From the NCBI RefSeq assembly GCF_039614765.1, contig NZ_CP154879.1, forward strand, positions 620,001-684,000: 64,000 nucleotides of DNA. The letters are read 5' to 3'. This document shows positions 7,313-23,289 of the stretch, one piece after another; position 1 is the stretch's first letter, and every line of letters begins with the position of its first letter. This DNA is from Castellaniella sp. MT123 (GTDB taxonomy: Bacteria; Pseudomonadota; Gammaproteobacteria; Burkholderiales; Burkholderiaceae_B). The translations under genes and the position numbers were made by a program. A model generated the notes under the pieces. It ran no database searches and was not told where the DNA came from. It worked only from the letters and a program-made list of their open reading frames with translations.

Positions 7313-8230
7313 ATGAGCACCACGGAAACCTTTACCAAAACCCCCGGCTGGCTGGATTATTACGATGGCCCCAGCCGTCCGCGTTTCCGGCTGCCGGCCG
7401 ACGCCGTGGATGCGCATTGTCACGTCTTCGGGCCCGGGGCCGTGTTCCCCTATGCGCCGCAGCGCAAATACACGCCCTGCGACGCCCCGAAAGAGGCCCT
7501 GTTCGCGTTGCGCGATCACCTGGGGTTCGCCAGAAATGTGATCGTGCAGGCCACCTGTCACGGCACGGACAACCGGGCGCTGATCGATGCCTTGCAGGCA
7601 TCGGGCGGACGGGCGCGGGGGGTGGCCACGGTGGCACAGGACGTCACCGATGCCGAACTGCGTGCCATGCATGAAGCCGGTGTGCGCGGCACACGCTTCA
7701 ACTTCGTCAAGCGGCTGGCGGATTTCACGCCACGCGAGGTGCTGGCCGACATTGCTGCGCGCATCGCGCCGCTGGGCTGGCACGTGGTGGTTTACTTCGA
7801 AGCCCAGGATCTGCCCGAACTCTATGATTTCTTCACCACGTTGCCGACGACGGTGGTCGTGGACCACATGGGCCGGCCGGATGTGACCAAGCCGGTGGAT
7901 GGTCCGGAATTCGGCTTGTTCGTGAAAATGATGCAGGACCATCCCAACATCTGGAGCAAGGTCACTTGTCCCGAACGGCTCAGCCAGTCCGGGCCGCCCG
8001 CGCTGAATGGCGAACAGCACCCCTACCGCGACGTGGTCCCGTTCGCGCGTCGCCTGGTCGAGACCTTTCCGGATCGCGTCCTGTGGGGCACCGACTGGCC
8101 ACACCCGAACCTGAAGTCCCACATGCCGGATGACGGCCTGCTGGTGGACTACATTCCCCAGATTGCCCTGACCGCGGAGTCGCAGCGCAAGCTGCTGGTC
8201 GACAATCCTCACCGCTTGTACTGGAGTTGA
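7313..8230 (+). CDS. ligI: 2-pyrone-4,6-dicarboxylate lactonase (LigI)
   Basis: A 305-residue amidohydrolase-superfamily lactonase that opens 2-pyrone-4,6-dicarboxylate to 4-oxalomesaconate. The N-terminal D33-x-H35-x-H37 strand (VDAHCHVFGPG) and D261 in WGTDWPHPN are visible. The latter corresponds to the catalytic Asp of Sphingobium LigI, an enzyme that needs no metal. The blocks FNFVKRL and VVDHMGRPD are also typical of LigI. It lies 11 bases after ligK and 3 bases before ligA, so translation is probably coupled. Confidence 0.93.
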   Translation: MSTTETFTKTPGWLDYYDGPSRPRFRLPADAVDAHCHVFGPGAVFPYAPQRKYTPCDAPKEALFALRDHLGFARNVIVQATCHGTDNRALIDALQASGGRARGVATVAQDVTDAELRAMHEAGVRGTRFNFVKRLADFTPREVLADIAARIAPLGWHVVVYFEAQDLPELYDFFTTLPTTVVVDHMGRPDVTKPVDGPEFGLFVKMMQDHPNIWSKVTCPERLSQSGPPALNGEQHPYRDVVPFARRLVETFPDRVLWGTDWPHPNLKSHMPDDGLLVDYIPQIALTAESQRKLLVDNPHRLYWS

Positions 8231-8233
8231 GCC

Positions 8234-9488
<1,255 letters not shown>

Positions 9489-9489
<1 letters not shown>

Positions 9490-10448
9490 TGGCGGAACGC
9501 ACACTGAAAGTCGCACTGGCCGGGGCCGGCGCGTTTGGCATCAAGCACCTGGACGGTATCGCCCGGATCGACGGTGTCGAGGTCGTCTCGCTGGTGAGCC
9601 GCGATCTGGACAAGACCCGCGAAGTGGCGCGGAAATATGGCATCGAGCACTCGACGACGGATCTGGCCGACGCGTTGTCGCGCCCCGAGATCGATGCGGT
9701 CATCCTTTGCACGCCCACGCAGATGCACGCGTCGCAGGCCATGGCCTGCCTGCGCGCCGGCAAGCACGTCCAGGTCGAGATCCCGATGGCCGACAACCTG
9801 AAGGATGCCCAGGCGCTGGTGGCGCTCGCCCGCGACAGCGGCAAAATCGCCATGTGCGGCCATACGCGCCGCTTCAATCCCAGTCACCAATACGTGCACC
9901 AGCGGGTCCAGCGGGGCGAATTCAACATCCAGCAGATGGATGTGCAGACCTATTTCTTCCGGCGCACGAACATGAACGCACTGGGCGAGCCGCGCAGCTG
10001 GACGGATCATCTGCTGTGGCACCATGCGGCGCACACGGTGGACCTGTTCGCCTATCAGTGCGGCAGTCCGATCGTGAAGGCCAATGCGCTGCAGGGGCCC
10101 ATCCATCCCACGCTGGGTATCGCGATGGACATGTCCATTCAGCTGCAGGCGGCCAATGGGGCCATCTGCACGCTGTCGCTCAGCTTCAACAATGACGGCC
10201 CGCTGGGCACGTTCTTCCGCTATATCGGCGATACCGCCACCTACATCGCGCGCTACGACGAACTGATCACTGGCCGCGACGAGGCTATCGACGTGAGCCA
10301 GGTCGCCGTGTCGATGAACGGGATCGAATTGCAGGACCGCGAATTCTTCGCAGCCATCCGTGAAGGACGGGAACCCAACGCCAGCGTGGCGCAAGTCCTG
10401 CCTTGTTATCAAGTGCTGCATGATCTGGAGCGGCAGCTGGCCAACTGA
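9489..10448 (+). CDS. ligC: 4-carboxy-2-hydroxymuconate-6-semialdehyde dehydrogenase (LigC)
   Basis: A 319-residue Gfo/Idh/MocA-family NAD(P)-dependent dehydrogenase with the dinucleotide motif VALAGAGAFGIKHLDGI at its N-terminus. It oxidises the hemiacetal form of the LigAB product to 2-pyrone-4,6-dicarboxylate. Two ATGs stand in tandem (9486 and 9489), both overlapping the ligB stop. I take 9489 because GGAGG at 9477-9481 is then 7 bases away. It closes the enzyme part of the operon; the ABC importer follows after 44 bases. Length is as in Sphingobium LigC (about 315). Confidence 0.93.
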
Positions 10449-10492: not shown

Positions 10493-11668
10493 ATGAAGTT
10501 CATCAAGACCCTCGGGGCGATGGCCTTGGCGTTGAGTACCGCCGCCGCCTTCAGCCCTGCCCAGGCCAAGGATCTGAAGATCGGCCTCGTGATGCCGATG
10601 TCCGGCCCGTTCGCTTCGCATGGCAAGCAGATCGGCCACGGCGTCGACTTGTATCTGGCCGAACATAACGGCATGCTGGGCGGGCGCAAGGTCCAGCTGA
10701 TCATCAAGGACGACACCGGCATTTCCCCCGCCGTGGCCAAGCGCCAGGCGCAGGAACTGCTGATCAAGAACAAGGTCGACGTCCTAACCGGCTTCTCGCT
10801 GACACCCAACGCTTTCTCGGTCGCCCCGCTGGCGACCGAAGCGAAGGTTCCGATGGTGGTGCTCAACGCGGCGACGTCGTCCATCACCGAGAAATCGCCC
10901 TACATCACCCGCGTCTCGATGACCTTGCCCCAGGACACCGCGCCGTTGGCGCAGTGGGCCTACGCCAACGGCATCCGCTCGGTCTACACGCTGGTGGCCG
11001 ATTACGGTCCGGGCCACGACGCGGAAAAGCAGTTCCAGAAGACCTTCACCAGCCTGGGCGGCAAGATCATCGGTGAAGTGCGCACCCCGGTCGCCACGCC
11101 CGACTATGCGCCGTACCTGCAGCGTATCAAGGACGCCAAGCCGGATGCCGTCTTCCTGTTCGTGCCCAACGGCGAGCAGGGTGTCGCTCTGGCCAAGGGC
11201 TTCAAGGAGCGCGGCCTGGAAAAGGCAGGCATCAAGGAACTGGCAACGGGTGACGTGACCGACGAGGACGTTCTGAACGCCATGGGCGATGCCGCGATCG
11301 GCATGATCACGTCGTTCCATTATTCGGCCGCGCATGATTCGCCGGAGAACAAAGCCTTCGTTGCCGCCTACCATAAAGCCTATCCCAACGATCGCCCGAA
11401 TTTCATGGCGGTTGCCGGTTATGACGGCATGCATCTGATCGACATGGCCCTGGAAAAGACCAAGGGCGATGCCAGCGGCGAGGCGTTCATCAACGCGGTC
11501 AAGGGCATGAAGTGGGTCAGCCCGCGGGGCCCGGTGGAAATCGACCCGCAGACCCGCGACATCATCCAGAACGTCTACATCCGCAAGGTCGAAAAAGTGG
11601 ATGGCGTGCTGCAGAACGTCGAGTTCGACACCATCAAGGACGTCAAGGACCCCGGCAAGCAGGGGTGA
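10493..11668 (+). CDS. ABC transporter substrate-binding protein (HAA type), paralogue 2
   Basis: A 391-residue periplasmic binding protein of the HAA family, with a signal peptide cleaved after residues 23-25 (AQA) and the mature start KDLKIGLVMPMSGPFAS. AGGAG stands 7 bases before ATG 10493. It is the first gene of a complete importer (binding protein, LivH, LivM, LivG, LivF) directly behind ligC. Protocatechuate or a related aromatic acid is therefore the likely ligand; HAA proteins are known to bind 4-hydroxybenzoate-like and phenylpropanoid ligands in other bacteria. It is strongly similar to the protein at 36-1205, so one of the two may have a shifted ligand range. Confidence 0.9.
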   Translation: MKFIKTLGAMALALSTAAAFSPAQAKDLKIGLVMPMSGPFASHGKQIGHGVDLYLAEHNGMLGGRKVQLIIKDDTGISPAVAKRQAQELLIKNKVDVLTGFSLTPNAFSVAPLATEAKVPMVVLNAATSSITEKSPYITRVSMTLPQDTAPLAQWAYANGIRSVYTLVADYGPGHDAEKQFQKTFTSLGGKIIGEVRTPVATPDYAPYLQRIKDAKPDAVFLFVPNGEQGVALAKGFKERGLEKAGIKELATGDVTDEDVLNAMGDAAIGMITSFHYSAAHDSPENKAFVAAYHKAYPNDRPNFMAVAGYDGMHLIDMALEKTKGDASGEAFINAVKGMKWVSPRGPVEIDPQTRDIIQNVYIRKVEKVDGVLQNVEFDTIKDVKDPGKQG

Positions 11669-11783: not shown

Positions 11784-12641
11784 ATGACTATACTTTTCGA
11801 TGGCATCGCGTACGGCATGCTGTTGTTCCTGATCAGCGTCGGTTTGTCGGTGACGCTGGGGTTGATGAATTTCGTCAACCTGGCACACGGTGCATTTGCC
11901 ATGCTGGGTGGCTACGCCTGTGTGATCCTGCTCAATGATTACGGGGTGCCGTTTCTGGCGACCCTGCCGGTCGCGATCCTCGTGCCGGCGATCGTGGGGG
12001 CGATTCTGGAGCGGGTGCTGTACCGGCGCCTGTATGCGGCCTCCGATCTGGATCAGGTGCTGTTTTCCATCGGGCTGGTGTTCATGGCGGTGGCGGCGGC
12101 GCATTATTTCTTCGGCGCCCAGCAGCAGCCGCTGCATCTGCCCGAATTCCTGTCCGGCCAGATCCATGTGATGCAGGGGCTGGATGTCGGCGTCTATCGC
12201 CTGTTCCTCATCTTCGCAGGCCTGTTGGTGGCGCTGCTGCTGCAGTGGTCGGTGATCCGGACTTCGTTTGGCGCGCGTCTGCGGGCCTCCGTGGACAATC
12301 AGCGCGTGGCGCGCGGATTGGGGATCGACGTCAGCCGGGTGTTCAGCCTGACTTTCGCGCTGGGGTCCGCCTTGGCGGGGCTCGGTGGCGCCCTGGGGGT
12401 CGAAATGCTCGGCCTGGACCCGGAATTCCCGGTGAAGTATCTGGTGTACTTCCTGATCGTGGTATCGGTGGGCGGCAGCGGCAATATCCTCGGATCCCTG
12501 TATGCTGCGATCCTGCTGGGGGTGGCCGACGTGGCCGGCAAGTACTACGTACCGCAGATCGGGGCCTTCATCATCTATGCCGTCATGGTGGCGACGCTGA
12601 TTTACCGTCCGCATGGCCTGTTCGGCCGGGCGCACAAATAG
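11784..12641 (+). CDS. livH: Branched-chain amino acid-type ABC transporter permease (LivH-like)
   Basis: A 285-residue inner-membrane permease with about eight hydrophobic segments. The LivH signature appears near the start (LMNFVNLAHGAFAMLGGYA), and the coupling-helix region around residues 180-200 reads ASVDNQRVARGLGID. It forms the heterodimeric channel with the LivM-like protein that follows 9 bases later. The gene name marks the family, not leucine specificity; the context suggests an aromatic-acid importer. Confidence 0.9.
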   Translation: MTILFDGIAYGMLLFLISVGLSVTLGLMNFVNLAHGAFAMLGGYACVILLNDYGVPFLATLPVAILVPAIVGAILERVLYRRLYAASDLDQVLFSIGLVFMAVAAAHYFFGAQQQPLHLPEFLSGQIHVMQGLDVGVYRLFLIFAGLLVALLLQWSVIRTSFGARLRASVDNQRVARGLGIDVSRVFSLTFALGSALAGLGGALGVEMLGLDPEFPVKYLVYFLIVVSVGGSGNILGSLYAAILLGVADVAGKYYVPQIGAFIIYAVMVATLIYRPHGLFGRAHK

Positions 12642-12650
12642 GACTCTGAC

Positions 12651-13691
12651 ATGACGACCTCTTCCCTTCCCGGAACCGGTTCCGTGCCGCGGCGCGAGGA
12701 TCTGCTCGACCGCTATCGCCGCACGGCGCACTGGAAGCCGCTGGAATACGTGTTCTGGTGCCTGCCGATCCTGGCGTATTTCGCCTTTCCCGGCAATTAC
12801 CTGCTGCTCAGCCAGATCGCCATCACGGGGCTGTTCGCGCTGTCGCTGGATCTCATCTTCGGCTATGCGGGGATCATCTCGCTGGGCCATGCCGCGTTTT
12901 TCGGCGTCGGCGCCTATACCGTGGGACTGCTGGGTTCCCACGGCCTGGGAGATCCGCTGCTGGGGCTGCTGCTGGCCGCCGTCTTCGCAGGGCTGCTGGG
13001 TTTTCTCAGCAGCTTCCTGTTGCTGCGGGGCAGCGACCTGTCGCGCCTGATGGTCACCCTGGGTGTGGCCCTGATGCTCTACGAGCTGGCCAACAAGTTC
13101 ACCCGCATCACCGGAGGGGTGGACGGCATGCCGGGCATCGAGATCAAACCCATCCTGGGTGTGTTCGATTTCGACATGTTCGGCCGGGTGGGGTTCATCT
13201 ATTCGGTCGTGGTGCTCTTCGTGCTGTTCTGGGTGGCCCGGCGGCTGGTGTATTCGCCCTTCGGGCAGAGCCTGCGCGGCATTCATATGAACGTCCTGCG
13301 CATGCCCGCGCTGGGGGTGCCGGTGAACCGCCGTCTGGTGCAGATCTACACGATCGGCGCGGCCTACGCGGGGGTGGCCGGGGCGCTGCTTGCCCAGACC
13401 AACCAGTTCGTGTCCCTGGACGTGCTCAGCTTTCAGCGTTCGGCCGATCTGCTGCTGATCCTGATCCTGGGGGGCGCCGGCCATCTGTACGGTGGGCTCA
13501 TCGGTGCCGTCGTCTTTGTCATGATCAATTATTTCCTATCCGACATGAACCCGCAGTACTGGCAGTTCTGGCTCGGCCTGATCCTGGTGCTGGTCGTGCT
13601 GTTCGCGCGCGGCGGCATCCTCGGCACGGCGCAGCAGTGGATCCGTTCCTCCCGGCAGCGGGCGCAGGCCAAAACGGAGACCTCCGCATGA
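12651..13691 (+). CDS. livM: Branched-chain amino acid-type ABC transporter permease (LivM-like)
   Basis: A 346-residue membrane permease. A hydrophilic N-terminal stretch of about 30 residues precedes the membrane segments. The LivM signature is visible (LDLIFGYAGIISLGHAAFFGVGAYT, near residues 65-90), as is the coupling helix near IHMNVLRMPALGVPVNRR. It partners the LivH-like protein. Its stop overlaps the start of the next ATPase by ATGA at 13688-13691. Confidence 0.9.
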   Translation: MTTSSLPGTGSVPRREDLLDRYRRTAHWKPLEYVFWCLPILAYFAFPGNYLLLSQIAITGLFALSLDLIFGYAGIISLGHAAFFGVGAYTVGLLGSHGLGDPLLGLLLAAVFAGLLGFLSSFLLLRGSDLSRLMVTLGVALMLYELANKFTRITGGVDGMPGIEIKPILGVFDFDMFGRVGFIYSVVVLFVLFWVARRLVYSPFGQSLRGIHMNVLRMPALGVPVNRRLVQIYTIGAAYAGVAGALLAQTNQFVSLDVLSFQRSADLLLILILGGAGHLYGGLIGAVVFVMINYFLSDMNPQYWQFWLGLILVLVVLFARGGILGTAQQWIRSSRQRAQAKTETSA

Positions 13692-14437
13692 ATCCCGTCT
13701 TGCAAACTCACGACCTGATCCGGCGCTTCGGCGGTTTCGTGGCGACCGATCAGGTGAACCTGGCGATTGCGCCGGGCGCGCGTCACGCCCTGATCGGACC
13801 CAACGGCGCGGGCAAGACGACGCTGATCAATCTGCTGACTGGTTTTCTGGAACCGTCCTCGGGAAGCGTCTCGCTGATGGGGCGAGACGTCACCCGGATG
13901 CCGCAGCACGAACGCTGCCGGCAGGGGCTGGTGCGTACCTTCCAGATCAACCAGCTGTTCATGGGGATGACCGTGCTGGAATCGGTTGCCCTGGCGGTCA
14001 GCGAACGTCAAGGCCTGGGGACCCAGTGGTGGAAGCCGCTGTCGGCCCACGCGGAAGTGGTCGACGAGGCCGCTGCCATCCTGGAGCAGCTGAAGCTCCT
14101 GCCCGACGCCTACGAAACCACGCGCGATCTGGCCTATGGCCGCCAGCGTCTGATCGAGATCGCGCTGGCCCTGGCCCTGCGCCCCAAGGTGCTGCTGCTG
14201 GACGAGCCGGCGGCCGGGGTGCCGACGGGCGAGAGCCGCGAACTCTTCGACACCATCGCGCAGTTGCCACGTGATGTGACCATCCTGTTGATCGAGCATG
14301 ACATGAATCTCGTGTTCCGCTTTGCCGAACGTATTTCCGTGCTGGTATCGGGCGCTCTGCTGCTCGAGGACACGCCCGAGGTGATTGCCCATCATCCTCG
14401 GGTCAAGGAAGTCTACCTGGGAGAAGCCCATGGCTGA
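13688..14437 (+). CDS. livG: ABC transporter ATP-binding protein (LivG-like)
   Basis: A 249-residue ATPase of the LivG class. Visible motifs are Walker A (GPNGAGKTT), the Q-loop region RTFQINQLF, and Walker B LLLDEPAAGVPTGE; the signature loop reads AYGRQRLIE rather than the usual LSGGQ-type, a common deviation in LivG proteins (which have YGxQR). The H-loop is IEHDMNLVF. Its start overlaps livM and its end overlaps the next ATPase by 8 bases, so the three are translated together. It pairs with the hemerythrin-fused LivF-like subunit. Confidence 0.9.
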   Translation: MNPVLQTHDLIRRFGGFVATDQVNLAIAPGARHALIGPNGAGKTTLINLLTGFLEPSSGSVSLMGRDVTRMPQHERCRQGLVRTFQINQLFMGMTVLESVALAVSERQGLGTQWWKPLSAHAEVVDEAAAILEQLKLLPDAYETTRDLAYGRQRLIEIALALALRPKVLLLDEPAAGVPTGESRELFDTIAQLPRDVTILLIEHDMNLVFRFAERISVLVSGALLLEDTPEVIAHHPRVKEVYLGEAHG

Positions 14438-15755
14438 TTTGCTGCGGATGGAGAACGTCTGGGCCGGGTACGGTGATGCCGTCATCCTCGAGGACCTGTC
14501 CTTCTCGCTGGAGGAGGGCGGCAGCTTGGCCCTGCTGGGGCGCAACGGCATGGGCAAGACGACATTGCTGGCTACCTTGATGGGCGTGACGCGTTTGCGC
14601 CAGGGGCGGATCGTTTTCGAGGGCCGTGACATCGCTCGCGTGCCCAGCCACCAGCGGGCCCGGGCCGGTCTGGGGTGGGTACCCCAGGAACGCGATATCT
14701 TCCGGTCGCTGACGGTCGAGGAAAATCTGATGGTGGTCGCCCGGCCGGGGGAATGGACGCTGGATCGCGTCTACGACATGTTCCCTCGGTTGCGCGAGCG
14801 GCGGGCCAATCTGGGCAATCAGCTGTCCGGGGGCGAGCAGCAGATGCTCGCCATGGGCCGCGCGCTGATGCTCAATCCGAAGATCCTGCTGCTGGACGAA
14901 CCCCTGGAAGGCCTGGCTCCGCTGATCGCACAGGAACTGCTGCACATCATCGACCGCATGGTCACAGAAGGCCGCATGGCCGTCATTCTGGTCGAGCAGC
15001 ATGCCCGCCAGATCCTGCCCATCACCCGTCAGGCCCTGGTGCTGGAACGCGGCAAGGTCGTCTATGCGGGTGGTAGCGCCGAGCTGCTGCGGGATGGACA
15101 AGCCCTGGACCGCTGGCTGGGAGCGGGCTCGACCGAAGAATCCCCTGGCCCGGCTGTGGCGTCGCCTGTGCCGGTGCCGGCGATCGAGGTCATCCACGAG
15201 GAACATCGGGCCATCGCGGCGATTCTGAATGCCATGTCCCGCGTCCTGGAAGGCATCGAGGCCGGTCGCCTGCAGCCCGATTTCACGCTGTTGGCCACCA
15301 TGGTCGAATACATCGCCGAAATGCCGGACAAACTGCATCACCCCAAGGAAGACCAGATCTTCGCGTTGTTGCGCACCAAGACCCACGAGCTCGATGCACA
15401 GCTCGATCGCCTGGAGGCCGAACACCGCGACACGGTTCCGGCGACCAGCCGGCTGGATCGGGCGCTGGTTAGCTACGTGCAGGGCGGGGCGGCGGCTTTC
15501 GGCGGATTCCGGGATGCCGTGCAGACGTATATCGCCGATGAATGGGTGCATCTGAACACCGAGGAAGGCGCCGTGCTGCCGGCGGCCAGGCGCCTGTTCA
15601 GCCCCGAGGAATGGCAGGAGATCAATGCCGATTTCGCCCGCAATGGCGATCCCTGGTCCGGTGCGGACAATCGCTACGCCGAGCTGTTCAAGCGGATCGC
15701 CAATCTGGCGCCGGCGCCGGTCGGCGTGGGCGCATCGGGCCTGGATGCGACCTGA
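14430..15755 (+). CDS. livF: ABC transporter ATP-binding protein (LivF-like) fused to a C-terminal hemerythrin-like domain
   Basis: A 441-residue protein; LivF proteins are normally about 235-240. Residues 1-235 are a complete LivF ATPase: Walker A GRNGMGKTT, signature LSGGEQQM, Walker B ILLLDEP, H-loop VEQHARQ. After a Pro/Ala-rich linker (about 236-250), residues 252-425 look like a hemerythrin/HHE cation-binding domain (PF01814-like) with candidate di-iron ligands H256, H259, H303-x3-E307, H332 and H374-x3-E378. The frame is continuous, with no stop or internal start that would separate the parts. Hemerythrin domains bind O2 or iron; here it could tune import to oxygen, which LigAB consumes. 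That role is inference. ATG 14430 overlaps livG. Confidence 0.88.
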   Translation: MADLLRMENVWAGYGDAVILEDLSFSLEEGGSLALLGRNGMGKTTLLATLMGVTRLRQGRIVFEGRDIARVPSHQRARAGLGWVPQERDIFRSLTVEENLMVVARPGEWTLDRVYDMFPRLRERRANLGNQLSGGEQQMLAMGRALMLNPKILLLDEPLEGLAPLIAQELLHIIDRMVTEGRMAVILVEQHARQILPITRQALVLERGKVVYAGGSAELLRDGQALDRWLGAGSTEESPGPAVASPVPVPAIEVIHEEHRAIAAILNAMSRVLEGIEAGRLQPDFTLLATMVEYIAEMPDKLHHPKEDQIFALLRTKTHELDAQLDRLEAEHRDTVPATSRLDRALVSYVQGGAAAFGGFRDAVQTYIADEWVHLNTEEGAVLPAARRLFSPEEWQEINADFARNGDPWSGADNRYAELFKRIANLAPAPVGVGASGLDAT

Positions 15756-15779: not shown

Positions 15780-16682
15780 TCAGGCGTCCTGGTAGAGCTC
15801 CAGGGCCAGACTGCGTAGCCAGCGGTGGGCCGGGTCCCCGTCCTGCCGATGGCTCCAATGGATGGGGACGTCGAATTCCCGCAGCGGAAAGTCGGCCTCG
15901 ACGATCGCGTACCGTTCCGGAGGGACGAACGATCGTGCGATGTTGCGCGGAATGATGACCGCCAGGTCGCTGGTTTCGATCACGACGGGCAGGGCCATGA
16001 AGTGTTCCGTGGTCAGGCGGATGCGGTCGGCCATGTGCAGGGCTTCCAGCGCCGTGTGCGTATAGGCATGGGTGCGTACGGCGATGAATTCCAGCGCCCG
16101 GATGTCGTCGAGCGGGACGGGGGAAGGCCGCGCGGTCAGCGCGAAGGGGTGGCTGTGGCGCATCAGGATGATGTAGCGGTCCTGGAACATGACGGCCGAA
16201 CGCATGCCCTGCAGCCCGGGCAGAAACCCAAAAGCCAGATCTACCCGTCCGTGGTCCAGGGCGACGCCCAGCTCCGGCACGGGCAGACGCATGGTTTCGA
16301 TCCGTGCGCGGGGCGCGCGCTGGCGCATGGCCTGAATCAGCCTCGGCAGGAACTGTCCTTCGCCGATGTCGGTCATGTGCAGACGAAAGCGACGATCAGA
16401 CTGTGGCGGATCGAAAGGCGCGGAATCCGTCGCCGCATTTTCCAGGACCCGCAGGGCATCGTGAATCGATAGCGCCATGCGTTGTGCCCGGGGTGTCGGC
16501 GCAACCCCGCCCGCCGCACGAATGAACAGCGGATCACCCACCAGATTGCGAAGGCGGGTCAGTCCCTGACTCACGGCGGGCTGGGTCAGGTTCAGTGCGA
16601 TAGCGGCCTGGCTGACGCTGCCTACTGTGTAGACCGCATCGAAGACACGCAGCAGATTCAAATCGAAGTTTTTAATATTCAT
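15780..16682 (-). CDS. LysR-family transcriptional regulator, probable regulator of the benzoylformate decarboxylase module
   Basis: A 300-residue LysR-type regulator of the NodD/PcpR-like branch, beginning MNIKNFDLNLLRVFDAVYTVGSVSQAA; the recognition helix is LTQPAVSQGLTRLR. The effector domain covers about residues 90-300. It is divergent from the decarboxylase gene at 16811 across an AT-rich intergenic region with two palindromes. It ends 24 bases from the convergent LivF-hemerythrin gene. The natural inference is that it senses an aryl-glycolate or benzoate-type acid and activates the 16811-25590 block. Confidence 0.88.
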   Translation of the reverse strand: MNIKNFDLNLLRVFDAVYTVGSVSQAAIALNLTQPAVSQGLTRLRNLVGDPLFIRAAGGVAPTPRAQRMALSIHDALRVLENAATDSAPFDPPQSDRRFRLHMTDIGEGQFLPRLIQAMRQRAPRARIETMRLPVPELGVALDHGRVDLAFGFLPGLQGMRSAVMFQDRYIILMRHSHPFALTARPSPVPLDDIRALEFIAVRTHAYTHTALEALHMADRIRLTTEHFMALPVVIETSDLAVIIPRNIARSFVPPERYAIVEADFPLREFDVPIHWSHRQDGDPAHRWLRSLALELYQDA

Positions 16683-16721: not shown

Positions 16722-16810
16722 TATCATGGGGGCTTTCATCATGCTTCAAACCCGTGCGAAGTGGGCATGAGGACAATGCAACTGGCTGGATGAATGGCCC
16801 GGAGGATGAC

Positions 16811-18430
16811 ATGCAAGCAGACGCGGTGATAGCGCGCGTACAGGACAACGAACAGACCGGGCTGGTGCCGGTCCGCCAGGCCGTCACGGATCTGCTGCGG
16901 CAATTCGGCATGACGACGATGTTCGGCAATCCGGGTTCGACCGAACTGGGCCTGTTCCTGGATTTCCCAGCGGACTTCCGTTACGTCCTGGGGCTGCAAG
17001 AATCCGTCGTGGTCGGTATGGCCGACGGATATGCGCAGGCGACGCACAATGCCGCCTTCATCAATCTGCATTCGGCGGTGGGAGTGGGGCACGCCATGGG
17101 CGCCATCTTTACGGCGCACAAGAACCGGACTCCGCTGGTGATCACCGCGGGCCAGCAATCGCGGGCCATCCTGCCTTACGATCCGTTCCTGTTCTCCAGC
17201 CAGGCCACGGAGCTGCCCAAGCCTTACGTCAAATGGAGCATCGAGCCAGCACGCGCCGAGGACGTGCCCCTGGCGATCGCCCGGGCCTATTACATGGCGA
17301 TGCAGCCGCCGTGCGGACCCGTGCTGGTGTCGGTGCCCGCCGACGACTGGGGCCGCTTGTGCGAGCCCGTGCAGGCGCGCCAGGTCAGCCGCTCGGTGCG
17401 TCCGGATCCGGTGCTGCTGGACCGGATCGGCGGCCAGCTGGATGTGGCCGGGCGCCCGGCCTTTGTCCTGGGCGCGGCGGTGGACCGGGACGGTGCCTGG
17501 GACGATGTGGTCGCCCTGGCGGAGCGTCATCGCGCCGCAGTCTGGACCGCGCCCATGTCGGGACGCAACGGTTTTCCCGAAGACCATCCTCTGTTCGCCG
17601 GCTTCCTGCCGGCAGCGCGAGAGCGCATCGTCAGCCTATTGGACGGGCACGATTTCATTCTGGCCTTGGGCGCCGCCGCCTTCACCTATCACGTCGAGGG
17701 CGAAGGGCCACACGTGCCGCCGGGCAGCGTCCTGGCGCAGATCGTGGACGACCCGAACACCTTGTCCTGGGCTCCGGTGGGCACGGCGGTGCAGGGGAGC
17801 GTGCGCCAGAGCGTGCGCGATCTGCTGGCCCGGCCGCAGCCTGCCGCGCGGCAGGATCCGCCGCGACGCGTGCCGGCCCCGCGTGCCGAGCCATCGCCGC
17901 TGATGTCCGTGGCGTACGTGCTGCAGACGTTGGCGGAAGTCCGCGCGGCCGATTCGATCGTGGTCGAGGAAGCGCCCAGTGCGCGACCGGTCATGCAGCG
18001 CTATCTGCCGATCCTGCAATCCGGAACCTTCTATACGATGTGCAGCGGCGGCCTGGGATTCGGTCTGCCCGCCGCCGTCGGGGTGGCGTTGGGCAAGCCG
18101 GGCAGCAAGGTCATCGGCGTGCTGGGGGATGGTTCCAGCATGTATTCGATCCAGGGGCTCTGGAGCGCCGCGCAGCTGGGCTTGCCCATCACGTTCCTGA
18201 TTCTGAAGAACCGCAGCTATGCGGCATTGCGGGAATTCGCACCGGTCTACGGCTTTACCGCCAAGGACGCGCTGCATGGCGTCGATCTGCCCGACATCGA
18301 TTTCGTCGCCACGGCCCGGGGCATGGGCTGCGAAGCCATGCGGGTATCCGAGCCGGATGCCCTGCCGGTCATCCTGCGCAAGGCGCTGGGCATGAAACTG
18401 CCGGTGCTGGTCGAGATCGACGTTGCTTGA
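16811..18430 (+). CDS. mdlC: Benzoylformate decarboxylase-like thiamine diphosphate enzyme
   Basis: A 539-residue ThDP-dependent decarboxylase. The catalytic residues of Pseudomonas benzoylformate decarboxylase (S26, E47, H70, H281) line up as S43 (NPGSTE), E64 (LQESVV), H87 (NLHSAVG) and H294 (TYHVEG). The ThDP motif begins GDGSS at 439. The reaction would be an aryl-glyoxylate to an aryl-aldehyde plus CO2. ATG 16811 is chosen for GGAGG at 16801-16805; the frame opens earlier at GTG 16754 and ATG 16790. The next genes encode an aldehyde dehydrogenase and an FAD-dependent hydroxyacid dehydrogenase, the flanking steps of a mandelate pathway. Ring substituents of the true substrate are unknown. 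Confidence 0.88.
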   Translation: MQADAVIARVQDNEQTGLVPVRQAVTDLLRQFGMTTMFGNPGSTELGLFLDFPADFRYVLGLQESVVVGMADGYAQATHNAAFINLHSAVGVGHAMGAIFTAHKNRTPLVITAGQQSRAILPYDPFLFSSQATELPKPYVKWSIEPARAEDVPLAIARAYYMAMQPPCGPVLVSVPADDWGRLCEPVQARQVSRSVRPDPVLLDRIGGQLDVAGRPAFVLGAAVDRDGAWDDVVALAERHRAAVWTAPMSGRNGFPEDHPLFAGFLPAARERIVSLLDGHDFILALGAAAFTYHVEGEGPHVPPGSVLAQIVDDPNTLSWAPVGTAVQGSVRQSVRDLLARPQPAARQDPPRRVPAPRAEPSPLMSVAYVLQTLAEVRAADSIVVEEAPSARPVMQRYLPILQSGTFYTMCSGGLGFGLPAAVGVALGKPGSKVIGVLGDGSSMYSIQGLWSAAQLGLPITFLILKNRSYAALREFAPVYGFTAKDALHGVDLPDIDFVATARGMGCEAMRVSEPDALPVILRKALGMKLPVLVEIDVA

Positions 18431-18470
18431 CGACTGCATATAAAAACACATTACCTTCCAGGAGGACACC

Positions 18471-19922
18471 ATGAGCACCATTTCTCTGCTGATCCGGGGT
18501 CGGCATCGGCAAGCCAGCGGGGGCAAGACCTTCGAACGCCGCAATCCGCTCGATAGCGGTGTGGCCACGGTGGCGCCGGCCGCCACGCCCGCGGATGCGC
18601 AGGAGGCCGTGCAGGCGGCGGCCGATGCCTTTGCGCAGTGGTCCCAGACCGGCCCCAGCCAGCGACGCGCCCTGCTGAGCAAGGCTGCCGATGCACTGGA
18701 AGCCCGCGAAGCCGATTTCGTGGCCGCGATGGCGGCTGAAACGGGGGCATCGGCCCTCTGGGCCGGGTTCAACGTCCATCTGGCAGCCGGCATGCTGCGC
18801 GAGGCGGCGGCGCTGACCTCGCAGATCGGCGGCGAGGTCATCCCGTCCGACGTGCCGGGCAATCTGGCCATGGCGCAGCGCGTGCCGGCAGGCGTCGTGG
18901 TGGGCATGGCTCCCTGGAACGCGCCAATCATCCTGGGGGTGCGGGCGATCGCCACGCCGCTGGCCTGCGGTAATACTGTGGTCCTGAAGGGCTCCGAACT
19001 GTGTCCCGCCACGCATGGCCTGATCATCGAGTCCTTGCAGGAAGCCGGGATGCCCGAGGGGGTCGTGAATTTCATCACCAATGCGCCGGATGACGCGCCC
19101 GCCGTGGTCGAGGCGCTGGTGGCCCACCCGGCCACACGGCGCGTGAATTTCACCGGTTCGACCAAGGTCGGGCGGATCATTGCCGGTCTGTGCGCGCAGC
19201 ATCTCAAGCCGGTCGTGCTGGAACTGGGCGGCAAGGCGCCCCTGGTGGTGCTCGACGACGCGGACCTGGAGTGCGCGGTCAATGCCGCCGCTTTCGGCGC
19301 TTTCGCCAATTCGGGCCAGATCTGCATGTCGACGGAGCGCATTGTCGTCGATGAAGCCATCGCGGATGCCTTCGTCACCCGGCTGGCCGACAAGGTGCGC
19401 GGGTTGCCGGTCGGCGATCCGCGCAAGGGGCCGGTGGTGCTGGGGTCGGTGGTGGACATGGCCGCCGTTCATCGCTGCAACGCCATGATCGACGATGCCC
19501 TGTCCAAGGGCGCGAAGCTGCTGTGCGGCGGCAAGTCGGACGACACCCTGATGCCGGCTACGCTGTTGGACCACGTGACGCCGGACATGCGGATCTATGC
19601 CGAGGAGACGTTCGGCCCGGTCAAGGCCATCGTCCGGGTCGAAGGCGAGGATGCCGCGGTCGCCTGCGCCAACGACAGCGCCTATGGCCTGTCGTCCGCT
19701 GTGATCAGTCGGGACGTCGCACGCGCCATGCGCATTGCCGGACGGATCCAGTCGGGGATTTGCCACATCAACGGCCCGACCGTCCATGACGAGCCGCAGA
19801 TGCCGTTCGGCGGCGTCAAGGACAGCGGCTACGGCCGGTTCGGCGGCAGGGCGGGGATCGATGCTTTCACCGAACTGCGCTGGATCACGGTCCAGACGGC
19901 GCCGCGCGCCTATCCGTTCTGA
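18471..19922 (+). CDS. Aldehyde dehydrogenase, aromatic (benzaldehyde/vanillin/salicylaldehyde) type
   Basis: A 483-residue NAD(P)-dependent aldehyde dehydrogenase. The general base E251 (ELGGKAP) and the nucleophile C285 (SGQICMSTER) are 34 residues apart, as is standard. The N-terminal half has the FNVHLAAGMLREAAAL and MAPWNAPIILGVRAIATPLACGN blocks seen in vanillin/salicylaldehyde dehydrogenases. It would oxidise the aldehyde from the upstream decarboxylase to a benzoate-type acid. CAGGAGGAC precedes ATG 18471 at a good distance. It lies 40 bases after the decarboxylase and 9 bases before the FAD dehydrogenase. Confidence 0.88.
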   Translation: MSTISLLIRGRHRQASGGKTFERRNPLDSGVATVAPAATPADAQEAVQAAADAFAQWSQTGPSQRRALLSKAADALEAREADFVAAMAAETGASALWAGFNVHLAAGMLREAAALTSQIGGEVIPSDVPGNLAMAQRVPAGVVVGMAPWNAPIILGVRAIATPLACGNTVVLKGSELCPATHGLIIESLQEAGMPEGVVNFITNAPDDAPAVVEALVAHPATRRVNFTGSTKVGRIIAGLCAQHLKPVVLELGGKAPLVVLDDADLECAVNAAAFGAFANSGQICMSTERIVVDEAIADAFVTRLADKVRGLPVGDPRKGPVVLGSVVDMAAVHRCNAMIDDALSKGAKLLCGGKSDDTLMPATLLDHVTPDMRIYAEETFGPVKAIVRVEGEDAAVACANDSAYGLSSAVISRDVARAMRIAGRIQSGICHINGPTVHDEPQMPFGGVKDSGYGRFGGRAGIDAFTELRWITVQTAPRAYPF

Positions 19923-19931
19923 GGATCCGCC

Positions 19932-21332
19932 ATGACGGAAAATCTGCTCGATACGCTGCGTGCTGTCGTCGGCGCAGGCCAGTGCTTCACGGAAGGTGCC
20001 ATCGAGGATCGCTTCCTGCATGACTGGATGATCAAAACGCCGCTGGGCCAGCCGCTGGCCGTGGTCCGACCGGCCGACACCGACCAGGTGTCCGCTGTCC
20101 TGCGCGCCTGCCACGCCGCCCGGGTGCCGGTGGTACCCCAGGGCGGACGCACGGGTCTGGCGGGCGGTGCCCTGCCGATCGAAGGCTGCGTCGTGCTCTG
20201 TCTGGAGCGGCTCGACGCCATCCACGAAGTCGATACGGCGGCGGCCACCATGACGGTCGGGGCGGGGACCGCGCTGGAGACGATCCAGCGCGCGGCCCAG
20301 CACGCCGGGTTCCTGTTTCCGCTGGATCTGGGAGCCCGGGGTTCCTGCCGCATCGGCGGCAACCTGTCGACCAACGCGGGCGGCAACCGGGTGCTGCGCT
20401 ACGGCATGACCCGCGACCTGGTGCTGGGGCTGGAAGCCGTGCTGATGGACGGCACCGTGCTGACCCAGATGAACAAGATGCTCAAGAACAACACGGGCTA
20501 TGACCTCAAGCAGCTGTTCATCGGCAGCGAGGGTACCCTGGGCGTCATCACGCGGGTGGTGCTGCGCCTGTTCCCGCAGCCGCGCAGCCGCTGCACCGCG
20601 CTGTGCGCGCTGGCGGACTATTCCGCCGTGGTCCGTCTGCTGAATCATGCCAAATCGGGTCTGGGTCCCAGCCTCTCGGCCTTCGAGCTCATGTGGCCGG
20701 ATTTCTACGAACTGGTGACGACGCAGCTGCCGTCGTTGCCCACCCCCGTGTCGCATGGACATGGCGCCTATGTGCTGCTGGAGTCCATGGGGACTGACCA
20801 GCAGGCGGATCAGGCCCGCTTCGAGGCGGTGCTGGGCGAGGCCCTGATGTCCGACATCGTCCAGGATGCGGTGATCGCACAGTCCGAGGCGCATGCGATG
20901 ACCCTGTGGTCGGTGCGTGATGCGTCAGGCGAGTTGCAGCGCATCTTCTGGCCGCACGCCGGCTATGACGTCAGCATTCCGACCGGGCAGCTGGGGGACT
21001 TCATCCTGGCCTGCACGCGCGCAGTGAAGCGGCGCTGGCCCGATGCGCGGACCGTGTTCTTCGGGCATGTGGGTGACTCCAACATCCATATCGGCGTCAA
21101 GGTCGATCAGGATCCCTTTCCCGAGTCGAAGATCGACGAAATCGTCTACGGCCTGGTGCGCGACTGGGGCGGCTCGGTGTCGGCCGAACATGGAATCGGC
21201 GTGCTCAAGCGGCCCTATCTCGAGTTCAGCCGCAGTCAGGCCGAACTGAGCACCATGCGCGCCTTGAAGGCCACGCTGGATCCGCTGGGTCTGCTCAACC
21301 CCGGCAAGGTCCTGCCCGAACCTGTCGGCTGA
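19932..21332 (+). CDS. FAD-linked D-2-hydroxyacid dehydrogenase (GlcD/D-lactate dehydrogenase family), candidate D-mandelate-type dehydrogenase
   Basis: A 466-residue flavoprotein of the vanillyl-alcohol-oxidase fold. The N-terminal FAD-binding domain shows PQGGRTGLAGGALPIEG and GGNLSTNAGGNRVLRYG; the C-terminal FAD-oxidase domain shows GHVGDSNIHI and SAEHGIGVLKR. Family members oxidise D-lactate, glycolate or D-2-hydroxyglutarate. Placed with a benzoylformate-type decarboxylase and an aromatic aldehyde dehydrogenase, the best guess is oxidation of a D-mandelate-type acid to its keto acid. This differs from the FMN-dependent L-mandelate dehydrogenase (MdlB) of the Pseudomonas pathway. Substrate not proven. 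Confidence 0.85.
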   Translation: MTENLLDTLRAVVGAGQCFTEGAIEDRFLHDWMIKTPLGQPLAVVRPADTDQVSAVLRACHAARVPVVPQGGRTGLAGGALPIEGCVVLCLERLDAIHEVDTAAATMTVGAGTALETIQRAAQHAGFLFPLDLGARGSCRIGGNLSTNAGGNRVLRYGMTRDLVLGLEAVLMDGTVLTQMNKMLKNNTGYDLKQLFIGSEGTLGVITRVVLRLFPQPRSRCTALCALADYSAVVRLLNHAKSGLGPSLSAFELMWPDFYELVTTQLPSLPTPVSHGHGAYVLLESMGTDQQADQARFEAVLGEALMSDIVQDAVIAQSEAHAMTLWSVRDASGELQRIFWPHAGYDVSIPTGQLGDFILACTRAVKRRWPDARTVFFGHVGDSNIHIGVKVDQDPFPESKIDEIVYGLVRDWGGSVSAEHGIGVLKRPYLEFSRSQAELSTMRALKATLDPLGLLNPGKVLPEPVG

Positions 21333-21336
21333 CGGA

Positions 21337-21358
21337 GCCCCGGCCTGGAGGCCGGGGC
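21337..21358 (+). terminator. GC-rich hairpin between the dehydrogenase and TRAP genes
   Basis: GCCCCGGCC (21337-21345) and GGCCGGGGC (21350-21358) form a perfect 9-bp stem with a 4-base loop, directly after the hydroxyacid dehydrogenase stop. It is followed by CCTCAAAAG rather than a T-run, so it probably attenuates or stabilises mRNA rather than ending the operon; the TRAP genes follow 37 bases later. Confidence 0.5.
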
Positions 21359-21394
21359 CCTCAAAAGAAAAGACATCCGACATCTGGAGACACC

Positions 21395-21958
21395 ATGCAC
21401 ACACCCTCGGCTGACGAGGCTCACGTCCCGCCCGTCCTACTCCCGGCCCAGTTCGGTCCGTATGGCCGGGCCCTGCTTCTGCTATCCAAATTCCTGGCAA
21501 CCCTGGGGGGCTTGGCCTTCGTGGCGCTGGTCGGCATATCCCTGATTTCCGTCGTCGGGCGCAAGCTGCTGGCCATGCCCGTGCCGGGCGACATGGAAGT
21601 CCTGATGATGGTGGCGGCAACGGCCTCGGCTACCTTCTTCGCCTACTGCCACCTGGAAGGCGGCGATGTGAAGGTCGACTTTTTCACCGCGCGCGCCCGG
21701 CCGGGAACCGTCCATCTGCTGGACGCGTTCGGCTCGCTGCTGGTCGGGCTGTTCGGCGTCCTGATTGCCTGGCGCAGCTGGGTCGGGGCCATGTCGCTGT
21801 TCGACGCCGGCGAGACCTCGGCCATCCTGGGCTGGCCCGTTTGGCTGGCTCAGGTGGGCATGGTCCCGGGTTTCGTCCTGCTGGCGCTGGCCGGCTTTTA
21901 CATGTGCGGCCTGCATCTGCAGGCATCGTGGGCCCGTCGCGCGGAGGTTCGGTCATGA
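21395..21958 (+). CDS. dctQ: TRAP transporter small permease (DctQ family)
   Basis: A 187-residue inner-membrane protein with four hydrophobic segments, the DctQ pattern, after a cytoplasmic N-terminus of about 30 residues. The family-typical FAYCHLEGGDVKVDFF segment lies in the middle. It partners the large DctM subunit, whose start overlaps its stop by ATGA (21955-21958). TRAP systems are sodium- or proton-driven and take up organic acids delivered by periplasmic DctP proteins. CTGGAGACACC precedes the ATG. Confidence 0.88.
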   Translation: MHTPSADEAHVPPVLLPAQFGPYGRALLLLSKFLATLGGLAFVALVGISLISVVGRKLLAMPVPGDMEVLMMVAATASATFFAYCHLEGGDVKVDFFTARARPGTVHLLDAFGSLLVGLFGVLIAWRSWVGAMSLFDAGETSAILGWPVWLAQVGMVPGFVLLALAGFYMCGLHLQASWARRAEVRS

Positions 21959-23289
21959 GCGGCATCACCATCGGTTTCGTCATGTTTGCGGTCCTGCTGA
22001 CCCTCATGGTGGTCCGCGTTCCCATCGGGATCTCCATGTTCGTCGTCGGGGCCGGGGGGTATGTCTACCTGACGGGCAGCAACTGGGCGCCGCTCATGGC
22101 GTCGCTGAAGAATCTGGCCTATGCCCGGCTGTCGAATTACGACCTCGTGGTGATTCCGCTGTTCCTGCTGATGGGGCAATTCGCCACCCACGGCGGCCTG
22201 AGCCGCAGCCTGTTTCGGTTCGTCAGCGCCTTCATCGGCCATCGGCGAGGCGGCGTGGCGATGGCCGCGGTCGGCGCTTGTGCTGGTTTCGGCGCCATCT
22301 GCGGATCTTCCCTGGCCACCGCCGCGACCATGGGGCAGGTCGTGCTGCCGGAACTGCGCCGCTACGGCTATGCCGGCAGCCTGGCCACCGGCACGCTGGC
22401 TGCGGGTGGGACGCTGGGCATCATGATCCCGCCGTCCGTGCCGCTGATCATCTACGCCATCCTGACCCAGGAATCCATTGGCAAGCTCTTCATGGCGGCG
22501 GTCATCCCGGGCCTGATAGCCATGATTGGCTACATGATCGTGATCCAGATCATCGTGCGCCGCAAGCCAGAGATGGGGCCCGCCGGCGCACGGACAGCCT
22601 GGTCGGAGCGCCTGAAGGCACTGATCCAGGTCGGGCCGGTGCTGGCGGTGTTTTTCATCGTCATCGTGGGCATCTATGCGGGGTGGGCGACGCCCACCGA
22701 AGCCGCAGCCATCGGGGCGGCGGCCTGCGGGATCATTGCGGTGGTGTCGGGCGGCCTGCGCTGGAAAGGCCTGCTCGAGAGCGCCCTGGGCACGGCGCAG
22801 GCCACGGCCATGATCTATCTGGTGCTGCTGGGAGCGGACATGCTGAACGTGTCCCTGGCCCTGTCGCAGATGCCGGCGGAACTGGCCTCCTGGGTGCAGC
22901 ACAGCGGCCTGTCGCCTTTCCTGGTGATCGTGTCCATTCTGCTGGTCTATATTTTTCTGGGCTGTGTGATGGATTCGCTGGCCATGATCCTGCTGACGAT
23001 TCCCATCTTCTATCCGATGGTGATGGGGCTGGATTTCTATGGCATGGGCCACGACGACAAGTCGATCTGGTTCGGGATCCTGGCCCTGATGGTCGTGGAG
23101 ATCGGTCTGGTCCACCCGCCCGTCGGCATGAACGTCTACATCATCAACCGCCTGGCCAAGGACGTCCCGCTGACGGAAACCTTCAAGGGGGTCATCCCTT
23201 TCCTGGCGTCGGACTTCATTCGCATCGCGGCCCTGATGCTGTTCCCCAGTATTTCCCTGGTCCTGGTAAAGACCTTCGGGGCGCTCTGA
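21955..23289 (+). CDS. dctM: TRAP transporter large permease (DctM family)
   Basis: A 444-residue integral membrane protein with about 12 hydrophobic segments. Typical DctM blocks are AAVGACAGFGAICGSSLATAATM, TLGIMIPPSVPLIIYAILT, GWATPTEAAAIGA and VHPPVGMNVYIINRLAKD. ATG 21955 overlaps the dctQ stop; frames open upstream are shadows. With the small permease and the binding proteins at 23367 and 24535 it makes a complete TRAP importer, probably for the acid consumed by the 16811-21332 enzymes. Confidence 0.92.
   Translation: MSGITIGFVMFAVLLTLMVVRVPIGISMFVVGAGGYVYLTGSNWAPLMASLKNLAYARLSNYDLVVIPLFLLMGQFATHGGLSRSLFRFVSAFIGHRRGGVAMAAVGACAGFGAICGSSLATAATMGQVVLPELRRYGYAGSLATGTLAAGGTLGIMIPPSVPLIIYAILTQESIGKLFMAAVIPGLIAMIGYMIVIQIIVRRKPEMGPAGARTAWSERLKALIQVGPVLAVFFIVIVGIYAGWATPTEAAAIGAAACGIIAVVSGGLRWKGLLESALGTAQATAMIYLVLLGADMLNVSLALSQMPAELASWVQHSGLSPFLVIVSILLVYIFLGCVMDSLAMILLTIPIFYPMVMGLDFYGMGHDDKSIWFGILALMVVEIGLVHPPVGMNVYIINRLAKDVPLTETFKGVIPFLASDFIRIAALMLFPSISLVLVKTFGAL

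Follow-up and report, generated by a model that had tools for sequence, protein, structure and literature searches.

FBXL5 carries a hemerythrin domain that serves as an iron/O2 sensor of animals. Among transport ATPases, those of the P1B-5 type have a C-terminal hemerythrin-like domain with the motif H-HxxxE-HxE-HxxxxD; the quantity sensed by this domain is unresolved, and H-HxxxE-HxxxH-HxxxxD is the motif of O2-carrier hemerythrins (PMC9388753). HHE genes of COG3945 occur in benzoate clusters of Rhodocyclales, where the available excerpt calls their role unclear and mentions no LivF fusion (PMC6449761). A 2016 survey of O2-binding hemerythrins lists 56 architectures, and its main text contains neither of the words ABC and transporter (PMC4919030). 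Hemerythrin and LivF both occur in two further papers, where they have nothing to do with each other (PMC4178425, PMC5061731). Here we describe livF-HHE, a gene of Castellaniella sp. MT123 that fuses a LivF-type ATPase of an ATP-binding cassette (ABC) importer to a hemerythrin-like HHE domain. The gene lies in a stretch of 64,000 nucleotides (positions 620,001 to 684,000 of NZ_CP154879.1, forward strand), which we call the window.

A LivF-type ATPase with a C-terminal HHE domain

The gene is a single open frame of 441 amino acids that starts with an ATG at 14430 and whose stop codon ends at 15755. Its parts are as follows, with linker confidence given as the predicted local distance difference test (pLDDT).

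14430..15755, + strand: livF-HHE fusion gene, 441 amino acids (open frame; Pfam PF00005 and PF01814; AlphaFold model)
14430..15134, + strand: LivF-type ATP-binding domain, residues 1-235
15123..15176, + strand: flexible Pro/Ala-rich linker, about residues 232-249 (low pLDDT; variable in relatives)
15177..15719, + strand: HHE/hemerythrin-like four-helix domain with a C-terminal helical extension, residues 250-430

The initial annotation of this DNA had described an uninterrupted frame joining LivF to a hemerythrin-like domain, and the domain search bears this out. Pfam finds ABC_tran (PF00005) at residues 20-159 (E=9.8e-32) and Hemerythrin (PF01814) at residues 252-386 (54.0 bits, gathering score 25.3, E=3.1e-14). 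The fused domain is a four-helix bundle, as in members of the hemerythrin/HHE family, and the ABC_tran domain lies inside a livKHMGF gene set, as in LivF-type importer ATPases. The protein does not reach the NCBIfam cut-offs for the LivF equivalog NF008626 (183.2 bits, cut-off 441) or for UrtE TIGR03410 (221.9 bits, cut-off 285.8); the ATPase half is LivF-like and lies outside the curated LivF equivalog. The AlphaFold model has two confident domains and a linker (232-248) with pLDDT < 50, which varies in sequence and length among relatives. None of the matches listed (best 50) covers both domains. A PDB search with the single sequence returned chance matches only, and Foldseek with the HHE domain gave zero matches at E<=0.001.

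We observe the LivF-HHE order in 8 genomes of Castellaniella, the window's genome included. Relative to the window's gene, the ratio of nonsynonymous to synonymous substitution rates (dN/dS) is 0.085-0.26 for the HHE part (seven relatives) and 0.015-0.16 for the LivF part (six computable comparisons). The HHE domain has evolved under purifying selection. That a sequencing error hides a stop near 15140, which the annotation had named as a possible flaw, is very unlikely given the open LivF-HHE frame in 8 genomes; together with the low dN/dS, this rules out a sequencing error or chance frame.

Repeated pairing of HHE and LivF in both orders

The same genome encodes a second fusion in the opposite order (G000:C1:2913510-2916914; region L001, also L034), a protein of 439 amino acids in which HHE (2-136) precedes ABC (223-367). 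We refer to LivF-HHE as type A and to HHE-LivF as type B; C. defragrans (L055) is a type A carrier. The HHE parts of the two own-genome fusions are 38% identical over 188 amino acids, a common C-terminal extension included, and the LivF parts are 42% identical. The type B gene, at 2.91 Mb, sits in a phenylacetate-type operon: its neighbours encode PaaN, PaaX, and an iron-sulfur/flavin adenine dinucleotide (FAD) reductase, with the gene for a FAD-dependent aromatic monooxygenase just downstream. The third HHE gene of this genome (L003:1489-1899, - strand) encodes a stand-alone protein of 135 amino acids (PF01814) near a sigma-factor-like gene.

Searches of wider scope recover both orders. At the family level (200 genomes, two-sequence profile), 43 genomes contain a match at E<=0.001, and 21 places, spread over 16 genomes, reach 150 bits or more. 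These 21 places comprise 17 fusions (8 LivF-HHE and 9 HHE-LivF) and 4 separate HHE genes in liv operons, one of which, L048, follows livF at a distance of 2.1 kb, with a monooxygenase gene in between. When 84,980 species genomes were scanned with a pattern, 15 named loci were confirmed, a count from which own-genome records were possibly left out. At the order level, 62 of 399 genomes match a 19-row profile at E<=1e-15. Outside the window's genome and G029 we examined 80 of the 85 places, leaving out five weak ones. By hand count these hold 9 LivF fusions (8 HHE-LivF and 1 LivF-HHE, L148), 6 HHE genes directly after livF (L105, L118, L124, L131, L134, and L151), 5 HHE genes within a few kb of liv genes, and 60 elsewhere, 4 of the latter with only distant (28-33%) ABC matches nearby.

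Matches at E<=1e-25 occur in 28 of 321 genomes at the class level and 21 of 349 at the phylum level, some genomes being counted in both. Among the 20 further regions read from these levels, a set from which many stand-alone-sized places were left out, 5 are HHE-LivF fusions; PaaX is near four of them and the fifth is on a short contig. G964, with the same score as G1026, was also left out of the regions read. Several families of the class carry HHE-LivF. In the class of G931, 11 of 308 genomes match at E<=1e-30, and ten fetched regions (11 of 16 places) and two other places contain no LivF fusion. Region L316 of that class has two overlapping or neighbouring HHE frames (L316:7040-8337) about 3 kb after livF.

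Four of 30 matching plasmid records were examined. On an Azospirillum oryzae plasmid an annotated hemerythrin domain-containing gene comes after genes for a 3-hydroxybenzoate 6-monooxygenase and a maleylacetoacetate isomerase, a gentisate-type context, and starts 17 bp behind a liv-type set's second gene for an ABC ATPase. In the other three the homologue is near or within universal stress protein genes; on a plasmid of Azoarcus sp. KH32C it lies inside such an annotated gene (L297:6533-7558), another possible architecture. Two liv-operon HHE genes are directly followed by a second hemerythrin gene (L059:2561-3022 and L062:10589-11068; 153 and 159 amino acids; PF01814), the one in L062 also matching TIGR02481. 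A 505-amino-acid frame with a C-terminal HHE domain (L120:7056-8573) has no Pfam match in its first 312 residues, and its true start is uncertain.

In a tree of 105 HHE domains, whose bootstrap had not settled, type B forms one group of 17 rows (support 76/44; 16 of the 17 at 96/98). The Castellaniella LivF-HHE domains fall in a second group (100/97) with the split version L048 and separate HHE genes that follow livF. L148, a long branch, stands apart from both groups and looks like a third, separate fusion. A LivF tree, made by a quick method and with long branches flagged, spreads HHE-paired LivFs over several lineages; interspersed among these are LivFs of the window's genome that have no HHE. 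In L051 a LivF of the type B lineage has no N-terminal HHE domain; the HHE gene that comes after it is a separate one and belongs to the type A group. Together these patterns suggest that the pairing evolved several times, fused in both orders and as adjacent genes. Because HHE has been fused to LivF repeatedly in both orders and is also paired with it as a neighbour, we take the HHE domain to function with LivF. Fusion in both orders alongside neighbour pairing is a classic sign of a working partnership, and it is our strongest argument.

Predicted metal site of the HHE domain

The predicted iron ligands lie on the four helices. Their conservation was counted over 45 liv-associated HHE domains, near copies included.

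15204..15206, + strand: His259 codon, predicted Fe ligand, helix 1 (45/45 liv-associated, 79/80 other domains)
15336..15350, + strand: His303-x3-Glu307 codons, predicted Fe ligands, helix 2 (H303 45/45, E307 43/45)
15423..15425, + strand: His332 codon, predicted Fe ligand, helix 3 (43/45)
15549..15563, + strand: His374-x3-Glu378 codons, predicted Fe ligands, helix 4 (H374 44/45, E378 45/45)

All of these had been proposed in the annotation together with H256, which drops out: this position is His in only 8 of 45 domains and Arg in a 98%-identical twin, ruling it out as a ligand. The remaining ligands have exceptions in L261 and L262, where Thr replaces E307 and Tyr replaces H332, and in L151, where Leu replaces H374. 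The two HHE-LivF genes with a degenerate site (L261:6264-7628 and L262:6961-8325) offer a natural comparison for the metal's role. In L151 the separate HHE protein (L151:6958-8409), encoded after livF in a meta-cleavage operon, is fused to an alpha/beta hydrolase (PF00561).

The pattern is thus H-HxxxE-H-HxxxE (4 His, 2 Glu). It is not the O2-carrier motif: Val336 stands four residues after H332, a column that holds His in 3 of the 45 liv-associated rows, and HxxxE(E) replaces HxxxxD. On this motif a classical O2 carrier is ruled out. The di-iron site is predicted to be intact yet not that of a classical O2 carrier, and iron, redox, nitric oxide (NO), or peroxide fits as well as O2 does.

Gene neighbourhood and pathway contexts

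livF-HHE is the last of a string of nine genes on one strand (amidohydrolase, ligA, ligB, ligC-type, livK, livH, livM, livG, livF-HHE), followed by a convergent regulator gene.

7313..8230, + strand: amidohydrolase (PF04909 E=5e-63), by position presumably a ligI-like lactonase
8234..8626, + strand: ligA, protocatechuate 4,5-dioxygenase small subunit (PF07746; TIGR02792 above cut-off)
8623..9489, + strand: ligB, catalytic subunit, protocatechuate 4,5-dioxygenase type (PF02900 E=1.1e-80; NF009903 above cut-off)
9486..10448, + strand: what we take to be a ligC-type dehydrogenase (open frame 9363-10448, in line between ligB and livK)
10493..11668, + strand: livK substrate-binding protein (PF13458)
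11784..12641, + strand: livH permease (PF02653)
12651..13691, + strand: livM permease (PF02653)
13688..14437, + strand: livG, second ATPase subunit (PF00005 and PF12399)
15780..16682, - strand: LysR-type regulator gene, convergent with livF-HHE (open frame; named by reading)

LigA passes the NCBIfam cut-off as protocatechuate 4,5-dioxygenase alpha and LigB as class III extradiol dioxygenase beta. LigAB had been placed in the next operon upstream; it does lie upstream, but in the same gene string: the ligC-type gene and livK are 44 bp apart, and livG and livF overlap by 8 bp. The nearest solved chains to LivK are 4ey3, 4eyg, and 4eyk (445 bits), reportedly crystallised with hydroxybenzoates, and hydroxybenzoates are probably its substrate. 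An additional LivK-like gene (36-1205) opens the window. Just upstream of the window, at about 612.7-616.3 kb of the genome (L301:6718-10293), lies a gene for a PobA-like hydroxylase (PF01494, 324 bits), in a region that also encodes a second LigAB, identified by PF02900 (LigB) and by reading (LigA). Beyond the LysR gene, 16754-23289 holds thiamine-enzyme, aldehyde dehydrogenase, FAD-oxidase, and TRAP transporter genes, all named by reading; they perhaps form a mandelate-like side pathway, and homologues of three of them follow the HHE gene in L048.

The survey, in which one representative per named cluster was identified and the meta-pathway aldolase, dehydrogenases, and hydratase were named by reading, shows that aromatic pathways recur around these genes while the enzymes differ. 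LigA and/or LigB are found in 6 of the 7 Castellaniella LivF-HHE regions besides the window (the exception, L044, is on a contig end) and also in the split version L048, so the co-occurrence of fusions with lig genes that the annotation had raised is seen near the Castellaniella genes. Where a separate HHE gene follows livF, aromatic genes are present in 12 of 13 regions, the remaining one (L059) being on a 6-kb contig; they are LigB-cluster genes, BenA, catechol 2,3-dioxygenase, meta-pathway enzymes, PaaN/PaaX, or an AurF-like gene. Examples are LigA/LigB at L105 and L118, as at the window, catechol 2,3-dioxygenase at L062, and BenA at L060. Type B contexts combine PaaN/PaaX/PaaK with a FAD monooxygenase. 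At least one marker (PaaN, PaaX, PaaK, AurF-like, BenC-like reductase, or FAD monooxygenase) occurs in 16 of 21 HHE-LivF regions, with L036 left out as a near copy of L034 and with L100, L102, L103, L106, and L258 marker-free. The AurF-like marker scores 29.4 bits for PF11583, just below the cut-off of 29.6, and the BenC-like reductase is also below its cut-off. Of the markers, meta-pathway enzymes, PaaX, PaaN, and PaaK indicate a pathway but are not themselves oxygenases.

As a control within the window's genome, the LivF query gave 51 ABC matches at E<=1e-20, of which 21 reach at least 140 bits. HHE is present on 2 of these 21, and both adjoin oxygenase genes (LigB; PF01494). No HHE was found in 20 other livF-like regions, 19 at >=140 bits and one at 128. 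With the marker set, which was derived from HHE loci and is biased accordingly, these 20 regions yielded, besides liv genes, only distant (24-35%) matches resembling aldehyde dehydrogenase, thiamine-enzyme, LysR, and TRAP genes. Four added Pfam families (PF00848, PF05138, PF01494, and PF02900) revealed a BoxB-like gene 11 kb from one HHE-less livF and, 9 kb from another livF, a partial match to PF01494 that is weak (22.4 bits, cut-off 22); around the remaining livF genes they gave no further strong match up to a distance of 10 kb. HHE is thus on 2 of 3 oxygenase-linked livF genes vs 0 of 18 others (Fisher p=0.014, a small and post hoc comparison). A link to nitrate respiration, with narG as a proxy for facultative anaerobes, is not supported (26 of 62 HHE genomes vs 104 of 337 others, p=0.10).

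Possible roles of the HHE domain

We propose, with a probability of roughly 45%, that the HHE domain is a sensory module that gates the ATPase activity of the importer by Fe/O2/redox state. The gene product would be the ATPase LivF of a transporter that imports aromatic acids (in this case most likely protocatechuate or related hydroxybenzoates), and the flexible linker would tether a cytoplasmic di-iron HHE domain to it. The domain would bind two irons through H259, H303, E307, H332, H374, and E378, and its state may shift with iron loading, O2, or redox. This state could then raise or lower ATP hydrolysis by LivFG, and substrate would be taken up only when it can be used by the O2-/Fe-dependent enzymes of the same operon that attack the ring. 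We hold a sensory module on the ATPase to be most likely because it is LivF that recurs as the partner, whereas the enzymes of the pathways vary. In other importers (MetN, MalK, ModC, and OpuA), transport is gated by regulatory domains on the ABC ATPase. The broader proposition, that a di-iron HHE domain on or beside LivF, fused several times in both orders, makes aromatic-acid uptake directly dependent on O2, iron, or redox, is put forward a little more tentatively. Of the points made in the initial annotation, the fusion architecture, the assignment to HHE, and the tie to a Fe/O2-dependent aromatic pathway stand and hold for additional fusions and gene pairs as well, but its O2- or iron-responsive stop to uptake is something that we, too, can only infer.

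Several observations weigh against such a sensory role. The disordered linker of 17 residues predicts no fixed contact between the domains, and the predicted template modelling score of the full AlphaFold model is only 0.55. L261 and L262 have kept the fusion without the E307 and H332 equivalents. The ligand set is of the YtfE type and not the O2-carrier set, which counts against an O2-binding form in particular. The L148 fusion region has no recognised aromatic marker, and a box-type cluster in the window's own genome (L300, G000:C1:122000-141000, by reading) has liv genes and no HHE. In liv-associated genomes narG is not enriched (5 of 12 vs 125 of 387, p=0.54). Finally, 60 of the 80 order-level homologue places are away from recognised liv genes, and the HHE module therefore also has other jobs.

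Different roles for the domain can be weighed on the same data. It may be an O2 or iron store, or a scavenger of peroxide and other reactive oxygen species, anchored at the importer and without control of transport; there it would shield the cell, or its Fe(II) enzymes, at the site where redox-active aromatics come in and peroxide escapes from oxygenases. We regard this as unlikely, though not far-fetched. It leaves the repeated fusion to LivF unexplained, no oxygenase fusion was seen among some multi-domain frames scanned, and a single domain per ATPase would give little storage or turnover.

Alternatively, HHE could mainly be a module for docking or assembly that keeps LivF close to a partner (the permease, an oxygenase, or each other), with the metal site secondary. 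The flexible linker, the tolerance of both domain orders, and the degenerate ligands of L261 and L262, where the fusion is kept, would all be expected of such a module. However, these two are the only fusions read that have lost ligands, which are almost invariant elsewhere, and the HHE domain is under purifying selection, making a docking role quite improbable.

A role in nitrosative stress is just as doubtful, if not more so. The ligands of YtfE are H84, H129/E133, H160, and H204/E208 (PMC9268430). The pattern is the same in the fused domain, with similar spacing (45/31/44 in YtfE, 44/29/42 here), and the profile matches YtfE at E=2.4e-4; its absence from the VIA structure-comparison list carries no weight either way. 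With narG present in the window's genome, the domain could sense or repair nitrosative damage as YtfE/RIC does and shut uptake under NO from denitrification. Yet carriers are not enriched for narG, the Pfam result contains no ScdA N-terminal domain, and no NO-related gene is among the operon gene names obtained, although no search was aimed at such genes. A chance fusion or annotation artefact without function has next to no chance of being correct, being refuted in substance by the conservation of LivF-HHE in 8 genomes of one genus, of type B across several families, and by low dN/dS.

O2-using ring degraders gain little from importing substrate beyond their oxidation capacity. A sensory HHE domain on LivF would, if true, be a post-translational check that ties aromatic import to oxygenase capacity, and its repeated fusion gives a testable role for the HHE genes of aromatic operons. 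We know of no direct coupling of O2 or iron status to an aromatic importer.

Comparison with known systems

Our literature search, with most subscription papers outside its reach, found no report of a LivF-HHE fusion. Compared with LivF of HAAT-family ABC importers (solved relative 1ji0 of Thermotoga maritima), the fusion has about 205 extra residues, which are the HHE domain. With YtfE/RIC it has in common the ligand set, the similar spacing, and the profile match given above, but it is without the ScdA N-terminal domain (Pfam, E<=0.001) and is joined to an ABC ATPase. The P1B-5 ATPases likewise combine a transport ATPase with a hemerythrin-like domain, but they are P-type metal pumps with a different motif. 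In the benzoate clusters of Rhodocyclales HHE likewise accompanies aromatic catabolism, and at L059 and L061 (Azonexus, Zoogloeaceae) we find the separate HHE gene after livF; unlike those clusters (PMC6449761), the box-type cluster L300 has no HHE gene. Separate HHE genes in benzoate clusters and a hemerythrin-like domain on P1B-5 ATPases were thus known, and the LivF-HHE fusion is, to our knowledge, new.

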